Part shown: piece by piece, positions 32,675-41,969 of the stretch
How positions within the stretch are numbered: position 1 is the first letter of the stretch
How the letters are laid out: the number at the start of each line of letters is the position of its first letter
From: Pararhizobium sp. IMCC3301
GTDB lineage: Bacteria > Pseudomonadota > Alphaproteobacteria > Rhizobiales > GCA-2746425
DNA length: 64,000 nt
NCBI RefSeq assembly: GCF_030758315.1
Contig: NZ_CP132336.1
Location: 186,001 to 250,000 of the forward strand
Direction of reading: 5' to 3'
Program-made: the position numbers and the translations under genes
The notes under the pieces: generated by a model
The model's database searches: none
Seen by the model: only the letters and a program-made list of their open reading frames with translations
Told to the model about the DNA's origin: nothing

Positions 32675-32703
32675 TGATCCAGCGCACCGAAGACAACGTA
32701 ACA
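32675..32703 (+). promoter_or_regulatory. ECF11/RpoE-type promoter for chrR-SDR
   Basis: TGATCC at 32675-32680, then 16 nt, then CGTAA at 32697-32701. This is the promoter type used by the RpoE sigma factors that pair with ChrR (singlet-oxygen response). The same elements with the same spacing precede the photolyase operon on the other strand. Transcription would start about 70 nt before chrR. Confidence 0.7.
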
Positions 32704-32721
32704 TTAGAAAAATACAAGTAT

Positions 32722-32790
32722 ATGGTTGCTATGCCGGCAGACAATTCAGGTTTGCCTGATACAGCCTTAGGATTGGTTGAACATGCTTGA
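32722..32790 (+). other. Possible 22-codon leader ORF overlapping the chrR start
   Basis: A small frame with ATG at 32722 and TGA at 32788-32790 lies between the promoter and chrR and overlaps the chrR start codon. This is where the partner sigma gene would normally end and couple to chrR. It could be a coupling leader, a relic of a deleted sigma gene, or chance. No clear ribosome site is seen. Confidence 0.2.
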
Positions 32791-33427
32791 ACAGGCCGAT
32801 GCCATTGACGCTCTGGTGGCGGAGTTTGTTTCAGGAACGTTGCCGACGCCGCTACAGGTGTTGTTGGCGTCCCATCTTGAAATGAACGCATCAAACCGCG
32901 GTTGGGTTGCAAATCTGGAAGCTTTAGCCGGAATCGAGCTGTCCGGGATCGACCCGGAGCCGCTTGCAGACCGCAATGCCATGCTTGAACGTATCATGGC
33001 TTCTTCCAGAGAGGGGAGGCCGTTCGTTGAGGCGAGTGAGAAATATCCGACGCCTGACATGCTGCAGCGTTTTATTGGCATGCCGCTTTCTCAGGTTTCC
33101 TGGAAACGAAACCGCTTTGCCGGTATCGATGAGGTCAAACTCGGTGAAATCGATGGCTGCAAGGCGTCGCTTTACCGCTTTCCGGCCGGGAAGGGCGTTC
33201 CGCTTCATACCCATGAAGGTATCGAGATGACGCTCGTGCTGCAGGGTGGCTTCAGTGACGAGACGGGTCATTACGTTAAAGGACAAATTTCGGTGGCAGA
33301 TGGAACCGTCTCTCATCGTCCGGTCGCCGATGACGACGAGGAATGTATCTGCTTTTCAGTCACCGACGCTCCAATCAGGCTAACCGGACCGCTGGGCCGG
33401 TTCATATCGCCGTTCCTGCGGACTTAA
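32783..33427 (+). CDS. chrR: ChrR-type anti-sigma/cupin protein lacking the usual zinc ligands in its sigma-binding domain
   Basis: A 214-residue protein with an N-terminal anti-sigma domain (about 1-85) and a C-terminal cupin (about 95-205). The cupin zinc ligands are intact: His142 and His144 and Glu148 in HTHEGIE, and His178. In the N-terminal domain His31 remains, but the positions of the two zinc cysteines (35 and 38) are Asn, and the N-terminal His near residue 6 is absent. In R. sphaeroides ChrR that zinc is needed to hold RpoE. Either this is a zinc-independent form or it no longer inhibits a sigma factor. AGGA lies 9 nt before the ATG. No sigma gene is adjacent. An SDR follows 19 nt downstream. 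Confidence 0.8.
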   Translation: MLEQADAIDALVAEFVSGTLPTPLQVLLASHLEMNASNRGWVANLEALAGIELSGIDPEPLADRNAMLERIMASSREGRPFVEASEKYPTPDMLQRFIGMPLSQVSWKRNRFAGIDEVKLGEIDGCKASLYRFPAGKGVPLHTHEGIEMTLVLQGGFSDETGHYVKGQISVADGTVSHRPVADDDEECICFSVTDAPIRLTGPLGRFISPFLRT

Positions 33428-33446
33428 ATCGTTGCAGCGAGGCCGC

Positions 33447-34241
33447 ATGCCACCCTATCAGGCTATACCATCTGACGGAATCGCCTGGATAACGGGGGCC
33501 AGCAGCGGTCTTGGCTATCATGTGGCAAAACGGCTCGCTGCTGCCGGCTGGACAGTTGCAGCCACAGCCCGCAGCGCTGATGATTTGGAAACGCTCGCCG
33601 CTGAATGTTCCGCCATGCCCGGACGGGTTGTACCCGCAAGCGGTGACGTCACGGACCAGGCGGCAATGGCAAAGCTTGCTGACAGCCTGATTGCGAACCA
33701 TGGTGGCATAGCTCTGCTGATCCTGAATGCCGGCATTTATCTGCCACTAAGGGCGAACGAATTGAAAGTTGAAGATTTTGACAAGAGTTTTGCGGTCAAT
33801 CTCAATGGAGTGACCAATTGTCTTGTGCCCTGCCTTGACCACATGCGGGCCAGGAAACGGGGCCAGATTGCCATTACGTCCTCGGTCGCCGGATTTGGCG
33901 GATTGCCGACATCTGCTGCCTATGGAGCCACCAAAGCCGGCCTTACAAATATGGCCGAGAGCCTGAAATTCGATCTTGATTTGCTCAACATTCATATCCA
34001 GATCGTGCATCCCGGATTTGTTGACACACCGGCCACCCAGTCCAATCCATTTCCAATGCCGTTTCTCATGGAGGTCGAAGATGCCGCCGATCGGTTTGTG
34101 AGGGGCCTGAAATCCGGACGCTTCGAGATCAGCTTTCCAAAACGATTTACCTATGGCCTGAAATTCTTGAATTTGCTGCCATACCCGCTTTATTTCTGGC
34201 TTCTGAATCGCGCGACAGGTTGGAAGTCCAGATCGACATAA
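33447..34241 (+). CDS. Short-chain dehydrogenase/reductase
   Basis: A 264-residue classical SDR. The cofactor motif TGASSGLG, NAG in LILNAGIY, the catalytic Ser in ITSSVAG and YGATKAG (Tyr-x3-Lys) are all present. A C-terminal hydrophobic patch (NLLPYPLYFWLLN) suggests membrane contact and a lipid or other greasy substrate. GAGG precedes ATG 33447. It is co-transcribed with chrR. In R. sphaeroides an SDR is part of the RpoE-controlled furan-fatty-acid locus, so a role in lipid change under oxidative stress is a reasonable inference. Confidence 0.85.
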   Translation: MPPYQAIPSDGIAWITGASSGLGYHVAKRLAAAGWTVAATARSADDLETLAAECSAMPGRVVPASGDVTDQAAMAKLADSLIANHGGIALLILNAGIYLPLRANELKVEDFDKSFAVNLNGVTNCLVPCLDHMRARKRGQIAITSSVAGFGGLPTSAAYGATKAGLTNMAESLKFDLDLLNIHIQIVHPGFVDTPATQSNPFPMPFLMEVEDAADRFVRGLKSGRFEISFPKRFTYGLKFLNLLPYPLYFWLLNRATGWKSRST

Positions 34242-34307
34242 TTTCACGCTGAAAAAATTGATCGGCACCGTAGCGTCCCGCAATGTCAGCAGCCCTGGAG
34301 ATCTATT

Positions 34308-34628
34308 ATGGCACGACATACCAATCCTGCAGACGCATGGAAACTTGGCTTTGACAGTTGGCGCATGATCAGCGAAGCGCAGTATGTTGTTGCTCTGCGC
34401 CTCGCTGGAATGTCTGGATTGTGGCACATGCAGCCGAACGAAACTGCACGCATGGTCAGCGAAAAGAATGCAGCCTTCACTCAATCCGCGGCAAAAGCAC
34501 TGATCGCTGCATCGTCCGGTGCACGACCAGATCAGATTGCCGCAGCCGCTTTGGCTCCGGTCAGAAAGAAAACCGCCAGCAATGTCAAGCGGTTAACCCG
34601 TGCGGCTCTGCGCAACTCAAAGCTCTAG
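34308..34628 (+). CDS. Small phasin-like protein (often annotated antifreeze protein)
   Basis: A 106-residue, wholly helical, Ala-rich protein with the pattern seen in small alphaproteobacterial phasin-like or so-called antifreeze proteins (WKLGFDSWRMISEAQ, then ALRLAGMSGLW, then NETARMVSEKNAAF). Such proteins coat polyester granules or act in stress; the antifreeze label is historical. GGAG precedes the ATG. The genome makes PHA (phaC in this window), so granule binding is possible. Confidence 0.65.
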   Translation: MARHTNPADAWKLGFDSWRMISEAQYVVALRLAGMSGLWHMQPNETARMVSEKNAAFTQSAAKALIAASSGARPDQIAAAALAPVRKKTASNVKRLTRAALRNSKL

Positions 34629-34648
34629 ACAGCGAAAATATCAGTCAA

Positions 34649-34900
34649 TCAGCTTCTCTTGGCTATCATACCCCAGATGGCCAGCACGATGATTGCACCC
34701 ACCACGGCACCAATCAGGCCAGCGCTCTCTTCCGGGCCGTACCATCCTAGCCACTGACCCAGATAAGAGGCTAAGAAAGCGCCCACGATACCCAGAATGG
34801 TGGTTAGTATAAATCCGGAAGGCTCATTTTTTCCCGGCATGATGAATTTCGCTATAACCCCGGCAACGAAGCCGATGATGATCGTCCAGATAATTCCCAC
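34649..34900 (-). CDS. GlsB/YeaQ/YmgE family stress membrane protein
   Basis: An 83-residue integral membrane protein with three hydrophobic segments: WTIIIGFVAGVIAKFIM, a glycine-rich middle span and GAVVGAIIVLAIWGMIAKR. The pattern, including PG between the first two spans, is that of the transglycosylase-associated (GlsB/YeaQ/YmgE) family, induced by stress in many bacteria. Function is unknown. It sits next to YciE-type ferritin-like protein on the same strand. Confidence 0.9.
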   Translation of the reverse strand: MGIIWTIIIGFVAGVIAKFIMPGKNEPSGFILTTILGIVGAFLASYLGQWLGWYGPEESAGLIGAVVGAIIVLAIWGMIAKRS

Positions 34901-35026
34901 GTGATAATTCCTTTTCTGCGCTACTTGGTACAGTAGGCCCGGAACGCCAGGAAGGCAGACTTGGTCTCAACCTTCTGTATCACCGGCGCTCCGAGTCACT
35001 TTTTTCGACCCGTTCTGCAATGCAGT

Positions 35027-35503
35027 TTACTTGGTTTTGTTGATGGTTTCCACAGCCATGCTGGTCAGCTTGGCATTCGCGGCCTTTTCCATGTCGAGAA
35101 TCTGCGTCAACAGATCATGAGCTTCTTCAAAGCCGAGCACTTTGGCCCATTCACGAAGCGTTCCATAGCGGGCAATTTCATAGTGTTCCACAGCCTGGGC
35201 AGCGGCCAGCAATGCGGCATCAAGCGCTACGCCACTGGCTTCTTCAATGATGCCTTCGGTTTCCTTGATAAGGCCTTCAATGGCGTCGCATTTTTCTCCT
35301 TCGGGCTTCTTGTCGATGGACGAGAATACTTTCTTCAGAAGTTCAATCTGCTCGCGGGTTTCACTAAGATGCTCGTCGACAGCCTTCTTCAGTTTGGCGC
35401 TGCTTGTGGCTTTCGCAACCTTAGGCAATGCTTTGGTCAGCGCTTGCTCGGCGTAGTAGATATCTTTCAAAGTGTGGTGAAATGCATCATTCAAAGTTTT
35501 CAC
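35027..35503 (-). CDS. YciE/DUF892 ferritin-like protein
   Basis: A 158-residue four-helix protein of the DUF892 family. The opening FHHTLKDIYYAEQALTKALP carries the first Glu/His ligands, and later ExxxxH-type segments (AVEHYEIARYGTL) supply others for a di-iron centre. YciE-type proteins are induced by stress or stationary phase; activity is not established. An EcfG-type promoter lies about 50 nt upstream. Confidence 0.9.
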   Translation of the reverse strand: MKTLNDAFHHTLKDIYYAEQALTKALPKVAKATSSAKLKKAVDEHLSETREQIELLKKVFSSIDKKPEGEKCDAIEGLIKETEGIIEEASGVALDAALLAAAQAVEHYEIARYGTLREWAKVLGFEEAHDLLTQILDMEKAANAKLTSMAVETINKTK

Positions 35504-35547
35504 TGTAGTGTCCTTTTTGCAGTTAGGTTCAAATCACTCACCATCAC

Positions 35548-35573
35548 AACTGTTTGTATCCGCAGTCGGTTCC
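35548..35573 (-). promoter_or_regulatory. EcfG-type promoter for the YciE-like gene
   Basis: On the minus strand GGAAC is followed after 17 nt by AGTT, one mismatch from the GGAAC-N16/17-CGTT consensus of the general stress sigma factor. It would start transcription about 40 nt before the YciE-like ATG. Confidence 0.55.
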
Positions 35574-35633
35574 CGACGTTTTGAATTGTTTCCTGATTAT
35601 CCCTGTGTTGCGGCGCAGACAATCATGAGTCAA

Positions 35634-36959
35634 TCAGGCTGAACCGGTTTCGATTTTCTGCCTGAGCTCGATCTGGCGCGCTTCATCAAGCGGAAAATTC
35701 CACATCAGCGCGATGGCAATCGATTTCAGAAAAACCGGCAACCCGCCATATAGAAAGCTCAGCGTAAACAACGCGCCGGGCGCATTATCCAATCGGGCAT
35801 CGAACCCCGCCAGTGCCAGCAGTGGAAAGGCCAGGCCAACGCCGAGAGCGAGGGAAGCTTTGGTGGCAAGGCCCCAGAAGGCGAAATACAATCCACTGCG
35901 TTGCTCGCCGGATTCAGCCGTGTCCAGATCAATCACATCGGCCTGTATTGAGGCCGGCAATGTCAGATCGGCACCAAGGGTCAGTCCGGTCAGAACACTG
36001 ATAGCGGCAAACCACCACACATCACCGTCGCCCAACAGCATGACCATGAGAAAAACCGGTAGCGCGAGGCTCATGGCAACACACCAGGTGCGGTGTTTGC
36101 CCAGCCGGTCCGACACTTTGAGCCAGACAGGCACACCCAGAACTCCGCAGAGGAAATAGACAATCAGAAGAGGGCCCTGAGCGGCTTCCGCGTTGAGCAC
36201 ATTCCCGACAAACAGCAAAAACAGCGTGGCCGGCAACCCATTGGCAAGGCCATTGATAAAAAACGCAATCAGCAGTCGGATAAACACCGTATTGTTGCGC
36301 AGGAATCTCATTCCGTCGTGGAAATTGACGCTCTGATGGCTGTGTTCCTTGGGCTCCGGGACGTTCCACACGGTAAGTGCTGCCGTCAAAGGCAGACCCA
36401 CACAGACAAACAGGGCAAGGGCGTATAGTCCGGCCGCGTCAACCTCGCGTGAGCTGGAGACGAGAATCGGCAGAATAATCGCAATCAGCGTGCCGATAAC
36501 GACCAGCCCTTCGCGGACACCACTGAGACGAGATCGCATTTGATAATTGCCGCTCAGTTCAGCGCCCCAGGCGGCATAGGGCAGTTGCACCATGCTCCAG
36601 CCGACCGACAGCGCCAGTCCCCAGAGCGCCAGATAGGTGATGGAGGGAGCTGGTCCGGGCACAAAAATCATCCAGGTGCCGGCAATTGTCAGCGGCACTC
36701 CGGCCAGGAACCAACTCCTCCGCCGACCGAAACTTGGCCGGATACGGTCGCTGAGAAGGCCAATGAGCGGATCATTGACCGCATTGAACAGACGGATCGC
36801 AAACAGCACAATCCCGACAAGAGCAAGATCAAGACCGAGGGATTTGGTATAGAACGTTGGAACGAAAATGAAGAAAGGCAGAGTCAGGACCGAGATCGGT
36901 ATGGCCGGAAGCCCGTAAATCAGGATTTGGCTCCAGCGCAAGCCGCTTGAATGGGTCAC
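35634..36959 (-). CDS. GPH-family (MFS_2) transporter
   Basis: A 441-residue membrane protein with about 12 hydrophobic segments and the GPH/sugar:cation symporter hallmark NAVNDPLIGLLSDR near residue 59, followed by GRRRSWFLAG. Transported substrate is unknown; members carry sugars or lipids. It starts 3 nt after the methyltransferase stop and is the last gene of the photolyase operon. A GPH transporter also lies in the RpoE-controlled R. sphaeroides locus around cfaA-like genes, which supports a shared role. Confidence 0.87.
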   Translation of the reverse strand: MTHSSGLRWSQILIYGLPAIPISVLTLPFFIFVPTFYTKSLGLDLALVGIVLFAIRLFNAVNDPLIGLLSDRIRPSFGRRRSWFLAGVPLTIAGTWMIFVPGPAPSITYLALWGLALSVGWSMVQLPYAAWGAELSGNYQMRSRLSGVREGLVVIGTLIAIILPILVSSSREVDAAGLYALALFVCVGLPLTAALTVWNVPEPKEHSHQSVNFHDGMRFLRNNTVFIRLLIAFFINGLANGLPATLFLLFVGNVLNAEAAQGPLLIVYFLCGVLGVPVWLKVSDRLGKHRTWCVAMSLALPVFLMVMLLGDGDVWWFAAISVLTGLTLGADLTLPASIQADVIDLDTAESGEQRSGLYFAFWGLATKASLALGVGLAFPLLALAGFDARLDNAPGALFTLSFLYGGLPVFLKSIAIALMWNFPLDEARQIELRQKIETGSA

Positions 36960-36962
36960 GCT

Positions 36963-38207
36963 CTACTTGCGGGCAAACACAAGCTGACGAACATCGATAT
37001 TCTCGGAGCGAAAACCGGCTTCGCAGTAATGCAGATAGTAACGCCATAAATTGTTGAACTGCTGATCAAATCCCAGCGGCATAATGCTCGGCCAGGCCTC
37101 GTCAAACCGCTCGCGCCAGATTTGCAGAGTTTTGGCATAATCATGGCCGAACACCCGTTCTGACACCATATGCAGATCGACCTGCTCACCCAGATGCTGC
37201 AGAATCTGTGGTGTAGGCAGCATTCCACCGGGAAATATATAGCGCCGGATGAAATCCATCTCATTGCGGTAAGTTTGGAAAAACCGGTCCTGAATCGTAA
37301 TGATCTGCAGGCCCGCGGTTCCGCCTGGTTTCAGACAATTCTTCATCCGGTCAAAAAACACCGGCCAGTAGGCTTCTCCCACTGCTTCAAACATCTCGAT
37401 CGAGGCAATTCTGTCATATTGACCGGTTTCGTCACGATAGTCCTGAAACTTGATATTGACCTTCTCCGACAGACCCGCCTTGAAGACGCGTTCTCTGGCA
37501 AAATCAAACTGTTCCTGAGATATTGTCAGCGCCGTGACGTTACAGCCGATTTCGCGCGCGGCAAATTCGGCAAAACCACCCCATCCGCAGCCGATTTCCA
37601 GAACAGTATCAGAAGCGCCGATACCGGCCTGATCGGCAAGGCTGCGGTATTTCAGAATCTGCGCCTGCGACAAATCCTCCAGCCCGCTTTCGAAGACGGC
37701 GGACGAATAGGTCATCGTCGGGTCAAGCCATTGCCGGTAAAACGCATTGCCAAGGTCGTAATGCGCCGAAATGTTCTTTTTTGATCCCCGCCTTGTATTG
37801 CGATTGAGCCAGCCGCGTAGTTTCAGGATCAGTTTGACCACGTGCCGGTCGTCGATAGCCGTCTGAATGAGACCTTGGTTGACGCAGAACAATTCCAGAA
37901 ATCGGGTGACGTCGGGACTGCTCCATTCTTCCGCCACAAACCCCTCGGCGACGCCAAGTTCGCCGCGTTTCAACAGCCGCGAAGCGAAATTGTGATCGTG
38001 AATGATGAGATCGGCCGCCGGTCCCGGCTTGCTGCCACATATTTGAAACGCTTGACCTTCTGGCAGATGAATTGTCAGGGAGCCGGCTTCCAGACCGGTT
38101 GCAAAACGAATCGCGCCCCGGGTCAGACGTGGCAGTGATCTGGTTTTTTCCCGCACATCGGCACGCGTGACCGAGGTGACCAGCTGACCCGATGAGGACA
38201 TATTCAT
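36963..38207 (-). CDS. Cyclopropane-fatty-acid-synthase-like SAM methyltransferase
   Basis: A 414-residue enzyme of the CFA synthase family. The SAM-binding motif VLEIGCGWGGFAEFA is near residue 200, followed by ASIEMFEAVGEAYW, RRYIFPGGMLPT and FDQQFNNLWRYYLHYCE. It methylates double bonds of phospholipid acyl chains, giving either a cyclopropane ring or, in the UfaM-type variant, an 11-methyl unsaturated chain on the way to furan fatty acids. The operon partners (FAD oxidoreductase, DUF1365, GPH transporter) favour the latter but do not prove it. It is 66 nt downstream of the DUF1365 gene. Confidence 0.9.
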   Translation of the reverse strand: MNMSSSGQLVTSVTRADVREKTRSLPRLTRGAIRFATGLEAGSLTIHLPEGQAFQICGSKPGPAADLIIHDHNFASRLLKRGELGVAEGFVAEEWSSPDVTRFLELFCVNQGLIQTAIDDRHVVKLILKLRGWLNRNTRRGSKKNISAHYDLGNAFYRQWLDPTMTYSSAVFESGLEDLSQAQILKYRSLADQAGIGASDTVLEIGCGWGGFAEFAAREIGCNVTALTISQEQFDFARERVFKAGLSEKVNIKFQDYRDETGQYDRIASIEMFEAVGEAYWPVFFDRMKNCLKPGGTAGLQIITIQDRFFQTYRNEMDFIRRYIFPGGMLPTPQILQHLGEQVDLHMVSERVFGHDYAKTLQIWRERFDEAWPSIMPLGFDQQFNNLWRYYLHYCEAGFRSENIDVRQLVFARK

Positions 38208-38273
38208 AGTGCCGAACCATCCAGTTGCAAATAGGCAGCAAAGTGTAGCATCAAGCTCACAAAAATCTCAAGA

Positions 38274-39092
38274 TCAGGGAACAAAAGGCCGCGGCGCATC
38301 ACTCGGCTCATGGGTATCATTATAGGAAACGGCCTTCGGACGGCGCGGACGGCGATGGAACCGCGCACCTTTGACCCACAGTTTAAACGCTTCCCAATGA
38401 ATGCCGCCAACAATTTTGAGGGTCTGAAACGGCACCTGAACAAACGCCCGCAACAGATTTGCGGTCGTCAGTGCCCGGCGCTTGCCGCTGAATGTCGCAG
38501 CCAGAAGGGGGCCTTCAGCGTCACATTCCAGTATGCGCAGGGTTAAAGCCGTATCAGGCCGGTTGAGACGAAACCGGTATGTCATATCCATATCGATGAA
38601 AGGCGAGACGTAAAACCGCTTGTTTCTTTCCTGGCGGATGTGTCCGTCCTGGCTCTCTCCCATGCGCACCGGTGCCACATAGGTATGGTGCTCGCCAAAA
38701 GTGTTTCGCACTTCATAAATCAGGGCGCTCAGATGATCGCTGGCATCGTAGCAGTAGTACACCGACAGCGGATTGAAGACCCAGCCGAAAACCCGGGGAT
38801 AGCACAGCAGTTCAATCCGGTACGGCGGCTTTTCCCCCGCCGCCTGCAACATCGCATCCACATAGTCACGCAGCGACGTGCCGTCGCGCGCGCCATGATC
38901 CTTGTCAAAAAAGCTCAGCAGGTTGAACCGGTTATGAGAAAAAATCGCGCTGTCTGCAGCCCGTGGTAACTGGTCCAGATCAAGCAACAAAGCATAGACA
39001 CGGTACTGGAACCTGTGCCCCATAGGTTTCAGCCGTGCATGCATCACCTTGCCGTCGTACAGCGCATTGCGTGAGGCCGATTGCGTGTTCAT
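38274..39092 (-). CDS. DUF1365 protein
   Basis: A 272-residue protein of family DUF1365, nearly always found with an FAD oxidoreductase and a CFA-like methyltransferase. Visible family stretches are HARLKPMGHRFQYRVY, the PPYRIELLCYPRVFGWVFNP block (in parts) and LSVYYCYD. Biochemical role is not known. I use ATG 39092; a GTG directly before it (39095) is an alternative. It begins just after the stop of the FAD oxidoreductase. Confidence 0.88.
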   Translation of the reverse strand: MNTQSASRNALYDGKVMHARLKPMGHRFQYRVYALLLDLDQLPRAADSAIFSHNRFNLLSFFDKDHGARDGTSLRDYVDAMLQAAGEKPPYRIELLCYPRVFGWVFNPLSVYYCYDASDHLSALIYEVRNTFGEHHTYVAPVRMGESQDGHIRQERNKRFYVSPFIDMDMTYRFRLNRPDTALTLRILECDAEGPLLAATFSGKRRALTTANLLRAFVQVPFQTLKIVGGIHWEAFKLWVKGARFHRRPRRPKAVSYNDTHEPSDAPRPFVP

Positions 39093-39095
39093 CAC

Positions 39096-40394
39096 CTATT
39101 CCGCTGCTGCCACGAATGGTTGCTCATCATTGGCTGCCACCGGACGCCATGGAATGACGCCACCAAGCTTTTCGGCAACCCGAAGGCCTGATGCCAGGCC
39201 ATCCTCGTGGAATCCGTATCCCGTCCATGCGCCACAGAACCAGGTGCGGTTAATGCCCTGAATCCGGTCCAGCATTTTCTGCGCCGCCAGTGCGGAGCTG
39301 TCATATTGCGGATGATCATACTCGAACTCATCGAAAATCAGATGATCTTCGGGCAGGCGGACAGGGTTGAGGCTGATAAACAGCGGTTTTTTCTCATCAA
39401 TACCCTGCAATTTGTTCATCCAGTAGGTCACCGATACGTCTGGCCCCTCCGGCTGGGTTTCGCTCAGATAGTTCCATGCTGCCCATGCGCCCTTGCGGCG
39501 CGGCATCAGCGAGGGGTCACGGTGCAGGAAAACCCGGTTCGGCTTGAAGCGCACCCTGGAGAGAATGTCGGTTTCATCCGCCGACGCATCACTCAAAGCT
39601 TTCAGTGTCTGATCGCTGTGGCCTGCCATAATCACCTGATCATAGGTATCGCTCTGTCCATGATTGTCCATAATCGTAACGCCGTCCCGGTTTCGGACAA
39701 CGGAGACCGCTTCGCAGCCCAGACGCATATTGGATGCAAGCGGCGCCAGTAATTTTTCTACATAGCTCCTGCTGCCGCCGGTCACGGTGCGCCATCTGGG
39801 ACGTTCAAAATGCAGCAGGCGATGATTGTTGAAGAAATTGGCAAAACTCTCGACGGGAAATGCCAGCATTTCGGTCGCCGGAGTGGACCAGATCGCAGAC
39901 CCCATCGGCACCAGATATTCATTGCGGAACCGTTTGGAAAATTTGCGTTTGTCGAGATAGTTTCCAAGCGACAGCCCGGACAAGTTATTGGCAGCAAGAT
40001 CGCCAAGACACTGCCGGTTAAAACGGAAAATCTCCCGCAACATCCACAAAAAACTGGGGGAAAACATATTTCGCTTCTGGGCAAAAATGCCTCGCGGAAT
40101 GCTGTCGCTCCATTCCGAACCACCGCGTTGGCTGAAGGAAAAGCTCATATCACTGGGCTCGGTCGCAACACCCAGATGATCAAACATTGCCGTGAGATTG
40201 GGATAGTTCAGCGCATTGTAAACAATAAAGCCGGTATCAACACTGATGGTTTCTCCGTCGTAATCGACGTCCACCGTTGCGCTGTGGCCACCGGGGCGGT
40301 TGCGCCGTTCATACAGCGTCACCTGATGTTTTGAATGAAGTGCCCAGGCGGCAGAATTTCCCGATATGCCGGAGCCGATGACAGCGATTTTCAT
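39096..40394 (-). CDS. FAD-dependent oxidoreductase (amine-oxidase type)
   Basis: A 432-residue flavoprotein starting with the dinucleotide motif IAVIGSGISGNSAAW, followed by ERRNRPGGHSATVD and DTGFIVYN. It belongs to the NAD/FAD-binding amine-oxidase-like group that accompanies DUF1365 and CFA synthase genes. In R. sphaeroides the corresponding gene is required for full response to singlet oxygen and is linked to furan fatty acid formation (desaturation of the methylated chain). That function is inferred here from order. It starts 29 nt after the photolyase stop. Confidence 0.87.
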   Translation of the reverse strand: MKIAVIGSGISGNSAAWALHSKHQVTLYERRNRPGGHSATVDVDYDGETISVDTGFIVYNALNYPNLTAMFDHLGVATEPSDMSFSFSQRGGSEWSDSIPRGIFAQKRNMFSPSFLWMLREIFRFNRQCLGDLAANNLSGLSLGNYLDKRKFSKRFRNEYLVPMGSAIWSTPATEMLAFPVESFANFFNNHRLLHFERPRWRTVTGGSRSYVEKLLAPLASNMRLGCEAVSVVRNRDGVTIMDNHGQSDTYDQVIMAGHSDQTLKALSDASADETDILSRVRFKPNRVFLHRDPSLMPRRKGAWAAWNYLSETQPEGPDVSVTYWMNKLQGIDEKKPLFISLNPVRLPEDHLIFDEFEYDHPQYDSSALAAQKMLDRIQGINRTWFCGAWTGYGFHEDGLASGLRVAEKLGGVIPWRPVAANDEQPFVAAAE

Positions 40395-40423
40395 ATATAG
40401 GAGTCCAATCTTGCGGCCGGTTG

Positions 40424-41911
40424 CTATGCGGCTTCTTTTGTCTTTGCGAATGCCGAGAGCGCTTTCTCTCTGGCAAGCGAATGCTCGACAATCGGTTTAG
40501 GGTAGGTCTTTCCCAACTCAACACCGGCTTTTTTCAGCACATCACCGGGGGCTTTCCAGGGAGCGTTCAGATATTTGGTCGGCAGATCTTTCAACTCCGG
40601 CACGAAATGGCGGATATAAGCGCCGTCGCGGTCGAATTTTTCACCCTGACTCATCGGGTTGAAGATGCGGAAATACGGAGCCGCATCAGCGCCGGAACCG
40701 GCAACCCACTGCCAGCTTGCAGCGTTGTTGGCAGGATCGGCATCGACCAGTGTATCCCAGAACCAGGCTTCGCCGTGCCGCCAGTCGAGCAACATATGCT
40801 TGACCAGAAAGGAGGCTGTGATCATCCGTACCCGATTGTGCATCCAGCCGGTTTGCCAGAGTTGCCGCAAGCCCGCATCGACCATCGGATATCCGGTTTG
40901 TCCGGTCTGCCAGAGCGGCAGAAAATCAGTATTGCCTTGCCAGGGAAAAGCATCGAAGCGGGGCTGAAAGTTCTGGCTCGCAAGATCTGGATTGTAATAC
41001 AGCAAACTATAGGAAAATTCGCGCCACAGGACTTCCGACAGGAAAGTCTCCAGATCCAGGGACGGAATCTCCAGATCAGGCGCAGTAGCAGCCGTCCATA
41101 TCTGATAGGGGCTGATTTCGCCAAAAGCGATGTGGGGCGATAATCGCGATGTGCCCTCTATAGCTGGCAGATTACGTCGTTCCCGGTACCCGGTGATGCC
41201 ATCGTCATGCAGAAAGGCGCTGAGGCGTGCCTTTGCACCGGCCTCTCCGGGCGTCCAGGTTGCGGCAATGGTTTCCGACCAGTCCGGACTGGCAGGGAGC
41301 AGCCCCCAATCTTCCAGAGTGTCTGAATCCGGTTGCAACTCAGCAGACAGAAGCCTGCCGGGTGCAGCATGGAACGAGCGATCAACACCGGCAGACAGGC
41401 AGGCCCGCTGGAACGGACTGTAGACCTTGTAATAGCCGCCCGAGTTTTTTTCGATTTCCCACGGTTCAAACAGCAAATTTGATTTAAAGCTCTGCGCCAC
41501 GAGGTCCCGGTCTTCGAGCCGCGCTTTTACCTGCTGGTCGGTCTCCATACCCACGGCGTCATAACGCCGGTTCCAGAACACGTTTCGTGCGCCGCTGACC
41601 TCAACCAGATCTTCGAGAATCTCAACAGGGTCGCCACGGCGCAAAACGAGTTGGCCACCGATTTGTTTGATGGAAGCTGACAAGGCGGCAAGGCTGTGAT
41701 GCAGCCACCACTTCGAGGCACCGCCAATGTCGCGCTGACCGGTTTCCAGAATGAAAACACACAGCACCGGTCCGCCGCATTTCAAAGCTTCCCTGAGGGC
41801 TGAATTGTCGGTTATGCGCAAATCTCTGCGAAACCAGACAATGCTGGTGCTGCAGGCGTTTGAAGGTTTTGTTTTCACCGGTTCTGAGACGGTGTTTGAC
41901 CCATTTTTCAT
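40424..41911 (-). CDS. phrB: DNA photolyase / cryptochrome
   Basis: A 495-residue flavoprotein that repairs pyrimidine dimers with blue light. The N-terminal photolyase domain (SIVWFRRDLRITDNSALREA) and the FAD-binding C-terminal domain are complete, with the conserved stretches LWREFSYSLLYY, TGYPMVDAGLRQLWQTGWMHNR and DWRHGEAWFWDTLVDADPANN (in parts). Sequence resembles class I CPD photolyases. It is the first gene of the five-gene stress operon, behind an ECF11-type promoter. phrA is a classic RpoE target in R. sphaeroides. Confidence 0.93.
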   Translation of the reverse strand: MKNGSNTVSEPVKTKPSNACSTSIVWFRRDLRITDNSALREALKCGGPVLCVFILETGQRDIGGASKWWLHHSLAALSASIKQIGGQLVLRRGDPVEILEDLVEVSGARNVFWNRRYDAVGMETDQQVKARLEDRDLVAQSFKSNLLFEPWEIEKNSGGYYKVYSPFQRACLSAGVDRSFHAAPGRLLSAELQPDSDTLEDWGLLPASPDWSETIAATWTPGEAGAKARLSAFLHDDGITGYRERRNLPAIEGTSRLSPHIAFGEISPYQIWTAATAPDLEIPSLDLETFLSEVLWREFSYSLLYYNPDLASQNFQPRFDAFPWQGNTDFLPLWQTGQTGYPMVDAGLRQLWQTGWMHNRVRMITASFLVKHMLLDWRHGEAWFWDTLVDADPANNAASWQWVAGSGADAAPYFRIFNPMSQGEKFDRDGAYIRHFVPELKDLPTKYLNAPWKAPGDVLKKAGVELGKTYPKPIVEHSLAREKALSAFAKTKEAA

Positions 41912-41940
41912 CGGAGTATGTGATCCCGTTTTCTAAACAG

Positions 41941-41969
41941 CTTTACGCCATTCCTGCGACAACGGATCA
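41941..41969 (-). promoter_or_regulatory. ECF11/RpoE-type promoter for the photolyase operon
   Basis: On the minus strand TGATCC, 16 nt, CGTAA: identical core elements and spacing to the site before chrR. It lies about 30 nt upstream of the photolyase ATG, leaving a short leader. It should drive photolyase, FAD oxidoreductase, DUF1365, methyltransferase and GPH transporter. Confidence 0.75.

Follow-up and report, generated by a model that had tools for sequence, protein, structure and literature searches.

A probable split ECF11 regulon in Pararhizobium sp. IMCC3301, with sigma and chrR genes far apart and a ChrR without the zinc site of its anti-sigma domain

The best described relatives of the system reported here are RpoE (sigma-E) and ChrR of Rhodobacter sphaeroides, the founding pair of group 11 of the extracytoplasmic function sigma factors (ECF11), and the pair PSPTO_1043-1042 of Pseudomonas syringae. 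The passages of PMC6852236 on the R. sphaeroides pair describe a cascade from sigma-E to RpoHII, and report that zinc in the anti-sigma domain (ASD) of ChrR is needed for inhibition and that RseA has a similar fold without zinc. A model-peptide study proposes the ASD zinc site as a site that reacts with singlet oxygen (part of PMC6432622). From P. syringae, a binding-site study gave the ECF11 consensus TGATCC-N16-CGTA (passages of PMC5507510), and 'all ECF11 sigmas' are said in a passage of PMC3597554 to be operon-linked to a ChrR-like gene. The present analysis concerns 64 kb of the genome of Pararhizobium sp. IMCC3301 (contig NZ_CP132336.1, here C1, positions 186001-250000; this whole stretch is called the window), in which a chrR gene occurs without a sigma gene. 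Judged from sequence, it probably belongs to a working ECF11 (RpoE/ChrR-type) singlet-oxygen regulon, which would be split, would lack self-activation of the sigma gene and would have a ChrR devoid of the ASD zinc site.

The features that carry this reading are the following (window positions, except for the last).

32675..32701, plus strand: ECF11-type promoter of chrR, TGATCC-N16-CGTAA, from a pattern scan of the window
41943..41969, minus strand (read 41969-41943): ECF11-type promoter of the photolyase operon, TGATCC-N16-CGTAA
32783..33427, plus strand: chrR, ChrR family anti-sigma factor (TIGR02451, 146.9 bits, cut-off 124.5), the only ChrR match in a profile search of the genome
32873..32896, plus strand: codons of H31-xxx-N35-xx-N38 at the place of the ASD zinc motif (HxxxCxxC), by alignment to the ChrR of 2z2s and 2q1z
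C1:2280080-2280105 of the window genome, G000 (L013:1288-1313): exact TGATCC-N16-CGTA, 49 nt upstream of an rpoH-II type gene

With spacers of 14-20 allowed, exactly two TGATCC/CGTAA sites were found in the window, against a mean of 0.09 in 100 dinucleotide shuffles, none of which held two. The end of the -10 element lies 81 nt before the ATG of chrR (32783) and 31 nt before that of the photolyase gene (41911). Both sites equal the published consensus including N16, and the match thus covers the spacer too. In the whole genome, TGATCC-N16-CGTA occurs 9 times (2 times in a reversed control), and three of the nine sites precede chrR, the photolyase operon and an rpoH gene. The latter encodes one of the genome's two RpoH-like proteins and is of the PRK07500 type (461.6 bits, above the cut-off); its site is what would be expected for the second tier of a singlet-oxygen cascade. 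These three units are preceded by the site in all four genus members that own the sigma gene (the window genome and G001, G002 and G003). A further member, G004, has neither sigma nor ChrR, and says little as a negative control because photolyase at E 1e-40 and RpoH at E 1e-60 were not found in it either. An earlier note on this DNA, made from the letters of the window, had described two identical sites, taken them for ECF11-type promoters of a singlet-oxygen-type regulon and proposed a genome scan for the motif. The sites were found in place, the P. syringae consensus (passages of PMC5507510) agrees with the promoter assignment, and the scan, with exact sites before the three units throughout the genus members, supports the type of regulon.

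The genome (4.58 Mb, one contig) has 14 Sigma70_r2 matches, none of which falls in C1:186001-250000, in line with the earlier claim that the window holds no sigma gene. An ECF11-type sigma gene was identified at C1:3655779-3656414, by which absence of the sigma from the genome was rejected. Its closest solved relative is R. sphaeroides RpoE (2q1z_A, E 1.9e-47; next 2.7e-23), and it is by this nearest match in the PDB, not by an ECF11-specific profile, that it is placed in ECF11; the second most similar sigma in the same genome matches it at E 2.4e-18. Its neighbours are IalB and DUF1232 genes, with rlmN also flanking the sigma-ialB locus; no anti-sigma gene was found among them, and no ECF11 site above chance before the sigma gene. 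Along the contig the sigma gene lies 3.4 Mb from chrR; should the contig be circular, the shorter path would measure about 1.15 Mb. The earlier note had held that an ECF11 sigma gene elsewhere, with its own ChrR partner, would reduce the case to a split regulon; the sigma gene is present and no ChrR partner lies beside it, so that by that reasoning the regulon is split. At L026:7680-7790 the start of this sigma differs from that of genus relatives: the conserved ATG context is out of frame with the long open reading frame, and about 30 residues of the N-terminus are therefore uncertain.

The window ChrR has HLEMNASN where R. sphaeroides ChrR has HLSLCDEC (alignment to 2z2s and 2q1z) and an Asp at the place of His6, so that three of the four ASD zinc ligands are gone and His31 is kept. 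By motif, this ChrR homologue does not belong to the zinc-binding anti-sigma (ZAS) proteins (H-x3-C-x2-C plus His6). Against the narrower model NF051881 it scores 115.9 bits, below the cut-off of 300. The zinc ligands of the cupin-like domain (H142, H144, E148, H178) are retained, as in 15 of 15 proteins from genomes in which the two genes are unlinked. In an AlphaFold2 model (11 rows, mean predicted local distance difference test (pLDDT) score 78.8) four helices precede the cupin barrel, and the model is matched best in the PDB by the ChrR chains of 2q1z and 2z2s. Within the genus, dN/dS values of 0.09-0.30 in the computable pairs show constraint on the ASD. Sigma and ChrR protein distances correlate across 15 genomes (Mantel r 0.90), a value that shared ancestry would give as well.

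To place the arrangement, 249 genomes of the order, at least 90% complete, were surveyed with cut-offs of E 1e-28 for ChrR and 1e-29 for the sigma. Both genes were found in 146 genomes, ChrR only in 3, the sigma only in 2 and neither in 98 (the Fisher co-occurrence test was run on 145, 3, 3 and 98); across the order, ChrR and the ECF11-type sigma thus tend to occur, or to be missing, together. With linkage defined as less than 5 kb on one contig, and placement known for all of the 146 except G197, 92 genomes are linked and 53 unlinked. Draft contigs do not explain the split, as 9 of the 53 carry both genes on a single contig, at least 1.0 Mb apart. The unlinked genomes span 17 family codes, and a single branch separates their sigmas from all others (SH-aLRT support 96 with 115 rows; 98 with 37 rows in a first survey). 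A recent local rearrangement was rejected on these grounds, and the arrangement is not peculiar to the window.

A second set consisted of named loci (the best 80 of 570) tested for a ChrR gene within at most 8 kb, or less at contig ends; these overlap the survey genomes, and counts from the two sets are not additive. A ChrR gene was absent within 8 kb at 67 of the 80, including loci of Rhizobium leguminosarum, R. phaseoli, Stappia, Roseibium, Hoeflea, Ahrensia and Methylopila. In the named-locus tree the main clade has an SH-aLRT support of 88, and four of the 67 (L192, L196, L193 and L202) are placed outside it. As a separate observation, plasmids such as NC_008378.1 and NZ_CP050098.1 (R. leguminosarum-type) bear a ChrR gene, with a sigma gene in the annotation of that match, while the unlinked sigma of R. 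leguminosarum Norway is chromosomal; the R. leguminosarum group may harbour two ECF11 systems side by side.

Traits were then compared between all 53 unlinked genomes and 62 linked ones (61 of the 92, plus G013 from the first survey, 84% complete). A site was scored as present at 9 or more of the 10 fixed bases with N16, a level reached by about 1% of shuffled upstream regions. The promoter has changed sides: it precedes the sigma gene in 49 of 62 linked and 0 of 53 unlinked genomes, and chrR in 3 of 62 linked and 45 of 53 unlinked ones. None of the 67 unlinked named sigmas has it either. The CxxC of the ASD zinc motif is found in 53 of 62 linked and 2 of 53 unlinked ChrRs, and His31 is conserved in 50 of the 53. 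The motif requires at least seven changes on the sigma tree, and His31 is kept with the cysteines gone in linked ChrRs of Pelagibius, Fodinicurvata and a Rhodospirillaceae metagenome-assembled genome, while His31 is gone as well in those of Hyphomonadaceae. Since linked pairs show zinc loss too, the split did not bring it about; probably it came earlier or arose independently. In seven linked Hyphomonadaceae pairs (L168, L172, L180, L183, L188, L190 and L203), the ASD is without its zinc ligands and the sigma gene without an upstream ECF11 site.

Other control of the unlinked sigma genes was also looked for. Strict patterns for EcfG, RpoH and sigma-70 gave 0, 0 and 2 matches before the 53 genes, which is no excess; a relaxed EcfG pattern matched 6 of 53 (1.2 in shuffles, 3 of 62 linked). 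An element GGTTACSAAA-N2-GTTG was set aside as too weak, with 7 of 33 held-out genomes (p<=0.05) against 3 of 62 linked ones. An element centred on GGTTAC(C/G)A precedes the sigma gene of 18 unlinked genomes from four families (for example L284, L270 and L297); it may act on the orphan sigma gene, or be part of the divergently oriented ialB instead.

As to which gene moved, IalB lies near 65 and RlmN near 53 of the 67 unlinked named sigmas, and IalB is present at all 38 further unlinked sigma loci. Each is also found at 10 of the 13 named linked loci of sister lineages, and the order rlmN-ialB-sigma-chrR occurs in 9 of these 13, including Pelagibius, Fodinicurvata, Stella, Hyphomonas and Henriciella. 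Because these flanks are common to sister lineages, the sequences suggest that the sigma stayed at the ancestral rlmN-ialB site and that chrR left; on the same flanks, a move of the sigma is disfavoured. A ChrR tree of 117 rows agrees: the unlinked ChrRs form one clade (support 99), which groups with ialB-type Rhodospirillales ChrRs (89, not starred) and apart from the order's own linked pairs (84). Long or double-gene rows (G157, G124, G065, G096, G246, G011, G103 and G066) were dropped from this tree, and 3 of the 13 named linked ChrRs were left out. At its present place, chrR has cysK and SDR (short-chain dehydrogenase/reductase) genes nearby in 9 of 10 long loci, with cyclopropane-fatty-acid-synthase-like (CFA-like), DUF1365 and FAD oxidoreductase genes too in 8 and none of these in G045; 38 short unlinked chrR loci have CysK in 30 and SDR in 31. 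The earlier note had spoken of a rewired or relocated regulon. Rewiring holds, but the supposed relocation of the sigma is probably to be reversed, and neither the loss of ASD zinc ligands nor the lack of an ECF11 promoter before the sigma had been seen there.

The remaining genes of the two window units are listed below; their identities, all proposed earlier, were confirmed by profile searches.

33432..34241, plus strand: SDR (PF00106, E 5.2e-49)
40424..41911, minus strand: DNA photolyase, first gene of the operon (PF00875 and PF03441)
39096..40394, minus strand: FAD-dependent amine-oxidase-like oxidoreductase (PF01593/PF13450)
38274..39095, minus strand: DUF1365 protein (PF07103, E 1.3e-81)
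36963..38207, minus strand: CFA-like methyltransferase (PF02353, E 9.3e-82)
35634..36959, minus strand: GPH/MFS_2 family transporter, last gene of the operon (PF13347, E 2.6e-75)

The SDR gene starts 4 nt after chrR and is presumably co-transcribed with it, and the five genes from photolyase to transporter are tightly spaced in an operon-like manner. Behind the chrR-SDR unit, at 34308-34628, lies a gene for a small protein with weak similarity to polyhydroxyalkanoate granule phasins (26.5 bits, cut-off 100).

A possible course of events would be as follows. The chrR gene would have left the sigma-chrR operon in an ancestor shared by a large clade within the order, and would have come to lie beside the effector genes of the regulon. 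In unstressed cells ChrR would still bind the sigma; as the ASD has no His/Cys zinc site, any hold would have to come from a helical bundle free of zinc; as candidate sensor, the cupin-like domain is left. By analogy with R. sphaeroides, singlet oxygen is the presumed signal that would free the sigma via this domain. Free sigma would then read the sites described above and transcribe rpoH-II, the photolyase operon and chrR-SDR. Because no ECF11 site precedes its own gene, the sigma would no longer raise its own level in that way, and its level would be set from outside the loop. The remaining ECF11-driven loop would be one in which the sigma makes its own inhibitor and newly made ChrR ends the response, so that a homeostatic circuit would have replaced the self-amplifying operon. 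That this holds for the whole clade, with self-activation gone, only the inhibitor driven by the sigma, ASD zinc playing no part in sensing and the cupin-like domain as sole sensor, is offered tentatively and might turn out somewhat more often wrong than right.

Several observations weigh against this reading. Several of the nine genome sites may be chance, including the six beyond chrR, photolyase and rpoH. Eight of the 53 unlinked chrR genes have no clear N16 site (two, in G033 and G102, have an N15 site), and only 5 of the 13 named linked sigmas have one, the eight without being those of Hyphomonadaceae and one of Caulobacteraceae; site loss is thus not confined to split pairs. Nor is the loss of zinc ligands, as 9 of 62 linked ChrRs have no CxxC, and among the named linked loci L175, L181, L189 and the Hyphomonadaceae show the loss too. 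Conversely, G065 and G096 are unlinked, yet the ChrR examined in each has CxxC. These two (L224 and L233) belong to one genus and have two ChrR genes each; one was examined in each, and it also has its own ECF11 site. In the model of the window ChrR the fourth ASD helix (61-74) has a pLDDT near 50, and mean identity is lower in the ASD (39%) than in the cupin domain (50%). IalB was found in 0 of 62 linked loci of the order itself, where about 1 kb upstream of the sigma is visible, so that the case for chrR as the gene that moved draws on sister lineages. If only G157 and G124 are dropped from the ChrR tree, the clade of unlinked and ialB-type ChrRs is not recovered, and it is not rejected (p-AU 0.38). 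Finally, the split arose once on the tree, which gives one independent pair, and the joint traits count as one event. The Fisher values for the traits are extreme, but the genomes are related; with a single origin and such kinship, what the counts describe is one clade in a stable state, and they show neither repeated co-evolution nor a cause.

Among other explanations, the window ChrR might no longer be an anti-sigma factor, with the sigma free and constitutive or under transcriptional control only, and with ChrR as a cupin effector of the regulon. The need for ASD zinc in R. sphaeroides (stated in PMC6852236, in the passages on inhibition), the lower conservation of the ASD and the possible upstream element before many unlinked sigma genes would fit this. 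Nevertheless it appears unlikely, as His31 is nearly always kept, the first three ASD helices are modelled, ChrR and sigma are present or absent together, their distances correlate (with the reservation about ancestry made above), and zinc-free soluble anti-sigma domains are known from other groups (passages of PMC7406223).

A swap of partners is considerably less probable still. An ancestor with two ECF11 systems would have kept the sigma at the ialB site together with the ChrR of the other system, beside the CFA/FAD cluster. CFA, FAD oxidoreductase or SDR genes are indeed found close to linked pairs within the order (20, 29 and 26 of 62), as at the present place of chrR, with no IalB seen in the 1 kb or so visible upstream of the sigma; the 117-row ChrR tree, however, puts the unlinked group with the ialB-type Rhodospirillales and away from these pairs. 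It would be least expected of all, and is hard to credit, that the two window sites are chance or used by another sigma factor. For at least one of the exact genome sites there is no open reading frame of 60 amino acids shortly downstream, and others resemble gene interiors, but the window sites equal the published consensus, and the same three units are preceded by it throughout the genus members with the sigma, as is chrR in most unlinked genomes. The split regulon with ChrR still acting on the sigma is therefore preferred.

If so, the clade offers a stable natural experiment in a textbook pair, in which the operon was broken, the positive loop removed and the zinc site lost, and the regulon was kept. 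Swaps between relatives could address whether the ASD zinc site is needed for singlet-oxygen sensing, and what self-activation gives an ECF sigma. Methods that pair sigma and anti-sigma factors by adjacency will miss the pair in the unlinked clade. In the literature on ECF11 and ChrR, as far as titles and the beginnings of abstracts go, no separated ECF11 pair and no zinc-free ChrR was found, and an earlier mention is possible.

With the R. sphaeroides pair, the present system shares sigma and ChrR homology, the cupin zinc ligands and, as described in passages of PMC10673084 and PMC6852236, the targets photolyase and rpoH-II. It differs in that R. sphaeroides has an rpoE-chrR operon and a zinc-binding ASD (same passages of PMC6852236), whereas here the genes are megabases apart and only His31 is left of the ligands; and in that RpoE regulates its own gene there (a passage of PMC10673084), whereas no ECF11 site precedes the sigma here. 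PSPTO_1043-1042 has in common the TGATCC-N16-CGTA consensus and a phr operon as target (parts of PMC5507510), but sigma and ChrR form one unit there, with the site before the sigma. The zinc-free class I ASDs (RseA, RskA and non-zinc soluble ones) show that the fold is possible without zinc, and about 28% of soluble class I ASDs have no zinc motif (passages of PMC7406223); those passages do not mention an ECF11/ChrR clade that combines a cupin domain with separated genes. A ChrR gene behind the sigma is a usual trait of ECF11 and does not define the group by sequence, and the unlinked clade is an exception to the stated operon linkage. Promoter and regulon are ordinary; the arrangement as a whole is unusual, and is a variant of the ECF11 system.

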